A DNA stretch of 64,000 nucleotides, from contig NZ_FOMH01000001.1 of the NCBI RefSeq assembly GCF_900112575.1, positions 324,543-388,542 on the forward strand. Reading direction: 5' to 3'. The notes beneath the pieces were generated by a model, which was not told the origin of the DNA, made no database searches, and saw nothing but the letters and a program-made list of their open reading frames with translations. Numbering within the stretch: position 1 is the first letter of the stretch; each line of letters begins with the position of its first letter. Source of the DNA: Flavobacterium phragmitis (lineage in GTDB: Bacteria; Bacteroidota; Bacteroidia; Flavobacteriales; Flavobacteriaceae). Of this stretch, positions 59,804-64,000 are shown one piece after another. The position numbers and the translations under genes were made by a program.

Positions 59804-59999
59804 AGCCTCTAAGTTTCTAAGGTGCTGAGATGCTAAGTTTTTTTAGAAGCAGGAAATCCCGTTTTCAGAACAAGTGACCTTCCTGCCATCCGCTATATCT
59901 TTTCCCTGCTAAAGGAGCAGGAAAAAGGATGTCGCTTCTGTCAGGGCTAACTAGAATATATCTTTTTCATAAGATACTAAGTTGCTAAGTTTTTTCATC

Positions 60000-61083: not shown

Positions 61084-61695
61084 ATGGCTTTTGAATTACC
61101 ACAATTACCTTATGCATACGATGCATTAGAACCACATATTGATGCACGTACAATGGAAATCCATCATACAAAGCATCACAATGCTTATACTACAAATCTT
61201 AATGCAGCTATCGCTGGAACAGATTTAGAAGGAAAAACAATCGAAAATATCTTAATCAACTTAGATAAATCTAACGCTGCAGTTCGTAACAACGGTGGAG
61301 GTTTCTACAATCACAATTTATTCTGGACTGTAATGTCTCCAAACGGAGGAGGATTGCCAACAGGAGATTTATTAGCGGCAATCGAAGCTTCTTTTGGATC
61401 ATTTGAAGAGTTTAAAGCAAAATTTGCTAAAGCTGGTGCTACACAATTTGGTTCTGGATGGGCTTGGTTAACAGTTCAAAAAGGAGGAAAATTAGAAGTT
61501 GTAGGTACTCCAAATCAAGATAATCCATTAATGCCAGAAGTTGCTGGTCACGGTGGAACTCCAATCTTAGGAATGGACGTTTGGGAGCACGCTTACTACT
61601 TAAATTACCAAAACAGAAGACCAGATTATATCGAAGCTTTCTTCAGTGTAATTAACTGGACAGAAGTTGCGAGAAGATTTGCTTTAGATAAATAA
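61084..61695 (+). CDS. Superoxide dismutase (Fe/Mn family)
   Basis: 203 residues, of normal length. Metal ligands are visible: His in [12 protein letters not shown], His in [11 protein letters not shown], and Asp and His in [20 protein letters not shown]. Whether the metal is Fe or Mn cannot be settled from these motifs. The protein lacks a signal peptide and should be cytoplasmic. It is a single gene, followed by a bidirectional terminator and then the small-RNA array. Confidence 0.96.
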
Positions 61696-61810: not shown

Positions 61811-61881
61811 AAAAAAGGCGGAATCACTTCCGCCTTTTTTGCCCCAAATCTACCATAAACTTAACCTACTAATGTTATGGT
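61811..61881 (-). ncRNA. Small RNA gene, array copy A
   Basis: Predicted 71-nt RNA on the minus strand. Promoter -7 TACCTTTA (61893-61886), with TTTT at the -33 distance. The RNA would start ACCATAAC. The first hairpin is ACCATAA/TTATGGT with a 16-nt loop. A conserved linker, AGATTTGGGGC, follows. The terminator is GGCGGAA, tetraloop GTGA, TTCCGCC, then six U. The third stem pair is C-G here and U-A in the other copies, a compensatory change. No ORF. Confidence 0.75.
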
Positions 61882-62140
61882 TTAGTAAAGGTATAGTAGT
61901 GATTATTTTGAAAAAAACATTTCGGATGAAAAGTAAGTATATCCGATAAATGGAATATACTTTATGACTGTGTCCTGTTAAAGGAAAAATATTTAAGATG
62001 AGAATCTGAAGAAAATAGAATAAAGAAAATAGAATAAAGAGAATAGAATAAAGATTTTAGGTTATAGAAAGAAGGGAAGCTTTTCTTTTAAAGAGACAAT
62101 CTATATTCTATTTTCTTTATTCTCTTAAAAAAAAAGAAAT

Positions 62141-62211
62141 AAAAAAGGTGGAATCGCTTCCACCTTTTTTGCCCCAAATCTACCATAAACTTAACCTACT
62201 AATGTTATGGT
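62141..62211 (-). ncRNA. Small RNA gene, array copy B
   Basis: Same 71-nt layout as copy A with -7 TACCTTTA (62223-62216). The 5' hairpin and linker are identical to A. The terminator is GGTGGAA, tetraloop GCGA, TTCCACC, six U. The promoter and over 100 bases of upstream DNA are near-identical to copy A. Confidence 0.75.
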
Positions 62212-62488
62212 TTAGTAAAGGTATAGTAGTGATTATTTTGAAAAAAACATTTCGGATGAAAAGTAAGTATATCCGATAAATGGAATATACTTTATAATCT
62301 TGTCCTGTTGAAGGAAAAAATATTTAAGATTATGATTTAAGAGAAGAGAATAAAGAGAAGAGAATAAAGAGAATAGAATAAAGAGAATAGAATAAAGATT
62401 TTAGGTTATAGAAAGAAGGGAAGTTTTTCTTTTAAAGAGACAATCTATATTCTATTTTCTTTATTCTTTTTTCTAAAAAAAAAGAAAT

Positions 62489-62559
62489 AAAAAAGGTGGA
62501 GTCACTTCCACCTTTTTTGCCCCAAATCTACCATAAACTTTACCTACTAATGTTATGGT
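62489..62559 (-). ncRNA. Small RNA gene, array copy C
   Basis: 71 nt, -7 TACATTTA (62571-62564). The 5' hairpin stem is unchanged and one loop base differs (GGTAAAG for GGTTAAG). The terminator is GGTGGA/TCCACC around AGTGAC, six U. The upstream region is partly diverged from A and B. Confidence 0.72.
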
Positions 62560-62673
62560 TTAGTAAATGTATGGCGGATATATTTTTGAAGAAAATTTTT
62601 CAGATAAAAGGTAAGTATTTCCGATGAAGAGAATGTAATGGGTTGTTTTAGAAATATTTGAGTTTGTTCCAAT

Positions 62674-62744
62674 AAAAAAGGTGGAATTGCTTCCACCCTT
62701 TTTGCCCCAAATCTACCATAAACTTAACCTACTAATGTTATGGT
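62674..62744 (-). ncRNA. Small RNA gene, array copy D
   Basis: 71 nt with the best promoter of the array: TTTG (62780-62777), 20 bases, TACTTTTG (62756-62749), a perfect Bacteroidota consensus. The RNA again starts ACCATAAC, with the same hairpin and linker. The terminator is GGTGGAA, tetraloop GCAA, TTCCACC, six U. It is the copy closest to purF and may be the ancestral one. Confidence 0.78.
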
Positions 62745-62844
62745 ATCTCAAAAGTATTGTAGCTTTTCAATTTTACCAAACAAACAGGATGAACGGCAAA
62801 AAAAACCGATGAAATGCACAAATTAACCTTTTATTAATACTTTT

Positions 62845-64000
62845 TTAATAAGCTCGAGCGTCTTTTCCTTCGTAAAAATTCATAAAAGCACGATTTACAA
62901 CTCGATTTCCACCTGGAGTTGGGTAGTCTCCCGTGAAGTACCAGTCACCTAAATTTTTAGGACACGCTTTGTGAAGATCTTCTACGGTTTGGAAAATAAT
63001 TTTCACTTCGGCATTTATTTCTGGTGAGCTTAACATTTCTGCAATTTTATCTGAAATTTCTTCATCAGTAAATTGGCTGTAAATTTCTGTTACATAATTT
63101 ACCACATCTTTATCTGCAAAATTTTCTTGCACTTTACATTTTGCATAGACTTCATCTACAATATGGTAAAGGTTTCTTTCTTTCAATAAAGCTAGTGCTG
63201 CTCTAAAAGCAACTAAACCTTCTAGTTTTGCCATATCAATTCCGTAACAATCAGGGTAACGGATTTGTGGAGCAGATGATACGATTACAATACGTTTTGG
63301 TTTTAAACGATCCATCATTTTAATGATACTCATTTTCAATGTAGTACCACGAACAATACTATCGTCGATAATAACCAAATTGTCTTCTGGTTTGATTACA
63401 CCATACGTAACATCATAAACGTGTGCGACTAAATCATCACGGCTACTGTCTTCAGTAATAAAGGTTCTAAGTTTAGCATCTTTAATTGCTACTTTCTCTG
63501 TACGTATTTTTACAGCTAAAAGTTCCTGAAGAGTTTCGGCAGTAAGTGTATTTCTATTTTCTAGAATATGATTGTTTTTTCTCTGATTTAAGAAATCCTG
63601 AGCCGCTTCAACTAAACCATAAAATGAAGTTTCGGCTGTATTCGGGATATAAGAGAAAACCGTATTATCTGTATCGCTGTCAATTGCTTTAAGTACAGCA
63701 GGTAAGATGAATTTACCTAAGTCTTTACGCTCTTGATAGATTTCGGCATCACTTCCTCTTGAGAAATAAATTCTTTCAAACGAACATGCTTTTTTGACAG
63801 TTGGTTCCAAGATTTGATTCATGGTAACTTTTCCGTTTTTCTTGATGATTAAAGCATTTCCTGGATCAATTTCCTGAACGCTTTCAAAAGGTACATTGAA
63901 TACAGTTTGAATAACAGGTCTTTCAGAAGCTACGACAACTACTTCGTCATCTTGATAAAAATAAGCTGGACGAATTCCGGCAGGATCTCTAAAAACAAAT
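62845..64000 (-). CDS. purF: Amidophosphoribosyltransferase, 5' part outside window
   Basis: The frame continues past the window edge. The internal ATG at 63822 is not the start, because the in-frame sequence upstream (RDPAGIRPAYFYQDDEVVVV) is the conserved N-terminal glutaminase domain. At least 385 codons are present. IYFSRGSDAEIYQERKDLG and the PRPP-binding LVIIDDSIVRGTTLKMS identify PurF. It makes phosphoribosylamine from PRPP and glutamine, the first step of purine synthesis. The small-RNA array lies directly downstream on the same strand. Confidence 0.95.
   Translation of the reverse strand, partial: FVFRDPAGIRPAYFYQDDEVVVVASERPVIQTVFNVPFESVQEIDPGNALIIKKNGKVTMNQILEPTVKKACSFERIYFSRGSDAEIYQERKDLGKFILPAVLKAIDSDTDNTVFSYIPNTAETSFYGLVEAAQDFLNQRKNNHILENRNTLTAETLQELLAVKIRTEKVAIKDAKLRTFITEDSSRDDLVAHVYDVTYGVIKPEDNLVIIDDSIVRGTTLKMSIIKMMDRLKPKRIVIVSSAPQIRYPDCYGIDMAKLEGLVAFRAALALLKERNLYHIVDEVYAKCKVQENFADKDVVNYVTEIYSQFTDEEISDKIAEMLSSPEINAEVKIIFQTVEDLHKACPKNLGDWYFTGDYPTPGGNRVVNRAFMNFYEGKDARAY

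Follow-up and report, generated by a model that had tools for sequence, protein, structure and literature searches.

The window analyzed here (64,000 nucleotides of the Flavobacterium phragmitis genome, contig NZ_FOMH01000001.1, positions 324,543 to 388,542) carries four 71-nt units on the minus strand of the interval between purF and a superoxide dismutase gene, all within positions 61811-62744:

61084..61695, plus strand: sod, Fe/Mn superoxide dismutase gene, the conserved convergent 3' neighbor of the array
61811..61881, minus strand: sRNA unit A, last copy, adjoining sod (98.0 bits, 71 nt)
62141..62211, minus strand: sRNA unit B (97.9 bits, 71 nt)
62489..62559, minus strand: sRNA unit C (93.1 bits, 71 nt)
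62674..62744, minus strand: sRNA unit D, first copy, adjoining purF (98.3 bits, 71 nt)
62845..63999, minus strand: purF, the 3' part lying in the window, conserved 5' neighbor of the array (neighbor analysis)

Such an array, with a promoter, a 5' hairpin, a UUUGGGGC linker and a terminator in each copy, had been predicted from the sequence, and we confirmed the four units together with these parts in every one of them (93-98 bits with R1, a covariance model from alignment A3 of 36 sequences, which include the window's four units themselves). These features support the reading as a putative multicopy gene for a structured small RNA with its own promoters. The original prediction as a whole stood in part; it did not include the conservation throughout the family, the address between purF and sod, or a paired site upstream of the units. 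The 325-aa part of PurF encoded in the window gave no Pfam match, and its orthologue at locus L232 matches the purF model TIGR01134 (E 9.9e-37) with 127 bits, below the model cut-off of 350. The complete genome (6.04 Mb) holds four good copies, all in the array (four matches at E<=1.6e-21, the next best at E 1.32), and a covariance-model search of it likewise returned four matches; a blastn search with unit D counts six, the extra two not being itemized. With copy A and its promoter (209 nt) as the reference, copy B is 93%, copy C 73% and copy D 62% alike, a pattern suggesting that A and B arose by recent duplication of a cassette, and unit D, on the purF side, is the copy common to close relatives. 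The spacers between the copies contain low-complexity repeats of the GAATAAAGA type (61990-62060, 62335-62400 and 62440-62480).

Folding reproduced both predicted hairpins, the 7-bp one at the 5' end and that of the terminator (z from -2.2 to -3.9, for stretches shifted by 4 nt). The GNRA loops that had been assigned to all copies did not hold up: copy C has an A.C mismatch and a 6-nt loop instead of a GNRA tetraloop, and the GNRA loop is not kept in relatives. Covariation, which had been claimed for the terminator stems, is clear there and nowhere else: of the 11 terminator pairs, 8 are changed on both sides in the 36 aligned sequences, as against 0 of the 7 pairs of the 5' stem. Among 145 distinct 50-mers, 106 read ACCAT/ATGGT, 20 read GCCAT/ATGGT, 11 have one mismatch and 8 miss the pattern; the sole double change in the 5' stem (C-G to U-A, beside a mismatch) occurs in the second unit of L167. 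Covariation was consequently rejected as proof of the 5' hairpin, which rests on folding energy and near-invariance because compensatory change is next to absent. Homologues hardly differ over the first 41 nt, and this core outlasts the terminator sequence. The most persistent RNA element is the linker UUUGGGG, which is retained even where diverged homologues have a changed stem and loop. For the diverged homologues found in G024 and G033, a pairing of AAAATA with TATTTT would be a shifted replacement of the 5' stem, which is suggestive only.

Each unit is preceded by a -7 box and by a paired direct repeat:

61886..61893, minus strand: -7 box TACCTTTA of unit A
61921..61954, minus strand: paired direct repeat of unit A (21.2 bits)
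62216..62223, minus strand: -7 box TACCTTTA of unit B
62251..62284, minus strand: paired direct repeat of unit B (21.2 bits)
62564..62571, minus strand: -7 box TACATTTA of unit C
62599..62632, minus strand: paired direct repeat of unit C (22.1 bits)
62749..62756, minus strand: -7 box TACTTTTG of unit D
62784..62817, minus strand: paired 20-bp direct repeat of unit D, LytTR-like (27.5 bits; second repeat starting 53 nt before the unit)

The fixed -7 element of the original prediction was recovered as a TAnnTTT(R) box ending 4 nt before ACCAT in 4/4 units, and the full promoter claimed for copy D (TTTG-N20-TACTTTTG) is present. Among non-redundant units of the homologous arrays (279, after 6 of 285 with no CCA start were set aside), 241 carry TAnnTT at -12 to -7 relative to the unit start, and 100 have the longer form TAnnTTTG; the -33 TTTG is weak, being found at -36 in 30 of the 279. 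The flavobacterial -7 box spans -12 to -5 (as described in PMC9723704), a position that would place the transcript start at the A of ACCAU.

An EM search of 285 non-redundant upstream regions revealed the direct repeat GC(A/C)(T/G)TT(C/T)A(T/A)C with a spacing of 20 in 226; in 227 regions the start of the second repeat falls between -53 and -55. No such repeat-spacing peak appeared in three shuffled sets. Scored with a matrix trained on these same regions, the paired site (at least 12 bits, spacing 20) occurs in 219/285 regions versus 0/1425 shuffled ones; when 53 regions served for training, the matrix recovered it in 149 of the 232 others, which include further Flavobacterium loci, versus 4/1160 shuffled. 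Across 467 units the site has spacing 20 in 379 and spacing 19, 21 or 22 in 15, the remaining promoters being of M-type (37), F-type (11) or other kinds (25). The 64-kb window contains four matches of at least 13 bits at spacing 20, all of them before the units, and 0.8 Mb of other DNA from the same genome contains six of at least 16 bits, one of them of at least 20 (reversed matrix: one of at least 16). LytTR sites consist of a pair of direct repeats, separated by roughly two turns of the helix, with the consensus [TA][AC][CA]GTTN[AG][TG]; a period of 20 bp lies at the lower end of their range. Our repeat fits this consensus except at the G of GTT, which is T in many copies, and looks like the site of a LytTR response regulator. 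Because the upstream DNA carries this conserved paired site, the notion that the pattern reflects selection on RNA and not on DNA was only half right.

Away from the units, a search of 1.31 Mb of flanking DNA, some of it redundant, gave 24 matches of at least 15 bits. About ten of these are a conserved paired-repeat-like stretch of Maribacter/Zobellia/Muricauda-like loci (L160 311-, L172 2124-, L191 3081-, L223 1903- and L254 6628+); in the three loci looked at (L160, L172 and L191), acpP lies about 80 bp downstream of this stretch. A paired site of 23.2 bits at L027 2411 (+) precedes a gene that by eye is TssD/Hcp-like, of type VI secretion, and L175 3835 (-) appears to be the relic of a copy, in which paired site and terminator remain and the RNA body is gone.

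The survey of the Flavobacteriaceae proposed with the original prediction revealed conservation throughout the family. By blastn, unit D matches 328/397 genomes and 207/237 genera of the family sample (E<=0.1; 16 of the 328 genomes only at E 0.001-0.1) and 164/199 genomes of the genus sample (E<=0.01). With covariance model R1, 26/196 genomes of an order sample and 15/198 of a phylum sample match, every one of them belonging to the Flavobacteriaceae; these two samples, which were run with stricter filters and with 25 first-look candidates scored per genome, yielded no match outside the family at this limited sensitivity, so that diverged forms there could be missed. An exact-pattern scan of named genomes matched at least 118 stretches, and among the 80 matches listed we take the record titles to be those of Flavobacteriaceae genera or of unclassified Flavobacteriaceae, Flavobacteriia, Bacteroidetes or Bacteroidota records. 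Phage and plasmid collections gave no blastn match, and viral contigs gave none with one exact pattern.

The array also has a fixed address. In 177 of 202 distinct arrays purF lies directly upstream on the same strand (the stretch end cuts 10 more), with a median of 101 bp from its stop to the first unit, and sod lies directly downstream and convergent in 154 (10 cut by the stretch end). Another 5' neighbor is found in 15/202, with sod still on the other side in 5 of these 15. The stretches hold one to six copies, never on mixed strands, and a single copy in 71/202, an upper bound because some stretches are cut. We also recovered purF loci from 18 of the 19 family genomes without a match. At two of them (L315 and L317) purF is accompanied by a diverged homologue (31-38 bits against R1), and a paired site lies before or close to it (25.3 and 22.8 bits). 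In 14 of the 18 no unit was recognized at purF, and of the 18 loci L316 reads N at the place of the array and the purF end of L328 was not located. The unit-less loci L327 and L329 keep purF, then a terminator, then sod (sod by eye), which indicates that the address is independent of the RNA.

Two classes of copies depart from this plan. M-type copies (37 units in 36 loci, among them L083, L086, L145, L160, L180 and L196) are the last copy in 36 of 37 cases, have no paired site and possess a conserved promoter stretch of their own; in 36/37 their linker is changed to UUUGGGACGAA or UUUGGGAUGAA. By record titles their hosts are Maribacter, Flagellimonas/Muricauda, Arenibacter, Eudoraea, Robiginitalea, Pricia and others. 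F-type last copies, in which a CTCATTTGCCTATCATCCCAATATATT-like upstream element replaces the paired site, occur in 11 loci (L041, L043, L053, L099, L156, L157, L167, L171, L188, L202 and L239). Judged by these promoters, M-type and F-type copies look like copies that split off under other control.

For the regulator we compared ten small RNA-positive genomes (six genera), chosen for smallness, in which few LytTR genes were expected. In six of them (G241, G461, G512, G290, G492 and G375) a LytTR protein has L267 as its best match in the F. phragmitis genome, at 35-47% identity, and each of these six carries the paired site at its usual position, with scores of 17.8-26.9 bits. The other four lack the site (best scores between -4.0 and -10.8): G384 and G554, which yielded no LytTR gene, and G362 and G538, whose only LytTR is L270/L282-like. 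A further RNA match in G362 lies too close to a contig end to be scored. The computed link is therefore 6/6 genomes with the L267 type versus 0/4 without it, or 4/4 versus 0/2 genera. An L270/L282-like protein is also the second LytTR of G512, G241 and G461, which shows that this type by itself does not track the site. The L267-type gene (G000:C17 in F. phragmitis, locus L394, 5379-6077) lies between rpsF and priA in 7/7 stretches, in five as the immediate neighbor of both and in two, from a single genus, separated from rpsF by one additional gene (rpsF and priA named by NCBIfam in F. phragmitis and by BLAST clusters in the others). Receiver (PF00072) and LytTR (PF04397) domains exceed the Pfam cut-offs in all three of the seven L267-type proteins that were scanned. 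No site of at least 13 bits was found in the locus of the L267 gene itself.

It is possible, if rather unlikely, that the same sRNA and the same activation through the paired site are served by an activator other than the rpsF-priA protein, either another LytTR protein or a member of another regulator family. The F. phragmitis genome has 26 LytTR genes to choose from, several of whose loci have weak site matches with spacings of 19-22, and among these loci L275 is the only one with a site of at least 20 bits (21.5), located before the LytTR gene. Relatives of this gene with a site in front are found in F. glaciei (27.6 bits) and F. flevense (18.9 bits), making three Flavobacterium genomes in all, and in the latter two the gene is in the sod-purF neighborhood, a few genes from the array and beside a TPR-HisKA_3 kinase. 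That the L275-type gene itself carries the site suggests that more than one LytTR protein may bind it, or that the site may serve other genes. Against another activator stands the L267 type, which tracks the site in 10/10 small genomes. L275 was rejected as the universal activator, since the type has a match of more than 100 bits in only 8 of the 19 RNA-positive genomes searched; of 11 RNA-negative genomes one has such a match and a second one of 94 bits. In G060 (L285) the L275-type gene has no paired site in front, and the 30 loci retrieved with the L275 query have no site of at least 15 bits before the LytTR gene, with two stray matches elsewhere.

Several observations concern the L275 type itself. 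A cluster of TPR-HisKA_3 kinase, L275-type LytTR and receiver genes occurs at L170 804-4204, L208 5594-8000, L232 1895-3916 and L284 3394-7478, and by eye its LytTR protein has Glu at the expected phospho-acceptor Asp. In some Flavobacterium this cluster or its kinase gene adjoins the sod-RNA-purF locus, and the LytTR gene has an upstream paired site. The RNA-negative G371 (L325) has no match to the L275-type query at E<=0.001, which fits a joint loss of the RNA and of LytTR genes.

Weighing dose, promoters and linker together, we consider a trans-acting sRNA under a LytTR regulator to be the best reading and, on balance, hold it probable that the array encodes a LytTR-activated, multicopy sRNA, probably acting via its G-rich linker, with the rpsF-priA LytTR protein as the likely activator. 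Each copy would be a transcription unit of its own, starting at the A of ACCAT, as we infer from the position of the -7 box, and ending at the intrinsic terminator. A LytTR-type response regulator, likely the one encoded between rpsF and priA, would bind the two direct repeats 20 bp apart, about 73 and about 53 bp upstream, and activate the promoter. The RNA would then pair with several mRNAs, most likely through the single-stranded UUUGGGGC stretch between 5' hairpin and terminator; extra copies would raise the dose, and in some lineages the last copy would have become a differently controlled variant. Loop and linker had both been proposed as the pairing site: the linker gained support from the persistence of UUUGGGG and from the M-type variant, and the loop lost it with the GNRA motif. 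Trans-action by base pairing is likewise something that we infer from sequence. The target check proposed with the original prediction was run for the linker: exact 9-mer complements (GCCCCAAAT) occur 24 times in the genome outside the array, versus 12 times for the reversed pattern, and they are not concentrated at gene starts, with 2/24 lying at an ORF start or up to 70 nt before one.

This last result fits the main rival to a trans-acting sRNA, a protein decoy. CsrB, for instance, titrates CsrA, and in a similar manner the invariant hairpin-linker core could titrate an RNA-binding protein, with copy number setting the capacity. Such a role, which we regard as unlikely, would explain why the 41-nt core, including the stem, is kept letter for letter, beyond the need of a short antisense seed, and it would suit the reiteration of copies (1-6 per stretch). 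It is at odds with the single copy in up to 71/202 arrays, with the single site that each 71-nt RNA would offer, and with the diverged homologues, which retain the linker and not the stem or loop.

A different question is whether the trans-acting sRNA favored here is already known from F. psychrophilum as an Rfp transcript, for which Rfp18 would be a candidate. Deletion of Rfp18 lowers two metalloprotease mRNAs in that species, and a homologue is expressed in F. columnare (PMC9723704). As described there, Rfp18 is widely conserved in Flavobacterium, a distribution that it shares with the array RNA (164/199 genomes of the genus). It pairs, according to the same source, through a third stem-loop, whereas the 71-nt unit has two, and the words purF, sod and copies are absent from the main text; we hold identity to be improbable. 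In the published sources covered, including parts of the main text of PMC9723704, of PMC11697453 and of PMC10197871, we found no report of the array RNA.

No match at gathering score was obtained for the array with Rfam 15. The best sub-threshold match in the array, STnc40, reaches 35.3 bits of the 45 needed, chiefly through the terminator, and this and the other sub-threshold matches (BTnc231, HrrF and others) were dismissed as terminator or A/T-rich look-alikes. Flavo-1 (RF01705), also a flavobacterial RNA motif, had been raised as a possible identity; the array is not Flavo-1, its model finding no match in 61811-62744 even at E<=10. The only Flavo-1 match (68 bits) is at 59875-59952 (-), 2 kb from the array and unrelated to it. 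A reading of the units as something other than RNA genes, either reiterated terminators or REP-like elements downstream of purF or else a short protein-coding gene, would accord with their position about 100 bp behind purF and their terminator ends. It is nevertheless very improbable given the -7 box and the paired site that stand at fixed places ahead of the units, a core that outlasts the terminator, the units found away from purF, the lack of any ORF of 50 aa in the sod-purF interval, and a one-base insertion (GGTAAGATTT for GGTAGATTT) in 41/145 distinct sequences that breaks any reading frame the units could share.

On the family-wide scale we propose, tentatively and at a little less than even chances, that the main output of the rpsF-priA LytTR protein is this one ultraconserved purF-sod sRNA, that tandem copies set its dose, and that lineage-specific copies have split off with new promoters and a new linker specificity. 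If this relay holds, the core sRNA circuit would be as old as the Flavobacteriaceae, with matches in about 200 genera, and would offer a clean case of tandem sRNA copies diverging into differently controlled variants. In marine, soil and freshwater habitats the Flavobacteriaceae are major degraders whose regulatory RNAs are little known; an RNA kept near letter for letter in about 200 genera, together with a candidate regulator and a fixed address, gives direct entry into such a circuit.

Known systems resemble the parts of this arrangement. The rpsF-priA protein combines a receiver with a LytTR domain and resembles BtsR, one of the LytTR regulators of the BtsR/YpdB type (PMC5552118, PMC10653868 and PMC4847170). 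Its score against the BtsR model (NF008677, 120 bits) is below the cut-off of 246, and no kinase gene was recognized by eye beside it in the seven stretches. From the same phylum come FopS and GibS of Bacteroides thetaiotaomicron, described as paralogous sRNAs of about 65-70 nt with canonical promoters and a conserved 5' part (PMC11697453); by that description FopS resembles the array RNA in size, promoters, conserved 5' part and paralogy within the Bacteroidota. The FopS family differs in having 14 members in the genome and in being described from the Bacteroidaceae (PMC11697453), whereas the array RNA is clustered, mostly at purF, with matches in Flavobacteriaceae only among the order and phylum samples. 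In circuit design the array would work like a third system, LhrC with LisR, an analogy that claims no membership in LhrC or in any sequence family. LhrC copies are tandem, LisR is of the OmpR type, and LhrC pairs through C-rich motifs. In Listeria monocytogenes LhrC1-5 are a multicopy sRNA family under a two-component response regulator (as described in PMC4132741 and PMC5880928), and a trans-acting role is the reading for both systems. The Firmicute LhrC is set apart from the array RNA by the LytTR-like sites of the latter, its G-rich linker and its presence in 207/237 sampled genera of one family. What the array has in common with LhrC/LisR, in its sequence features, is a set of nearly identical copies that each possess a promoter and a terminator, and a regulator-like site before each unit in the window (4/4).
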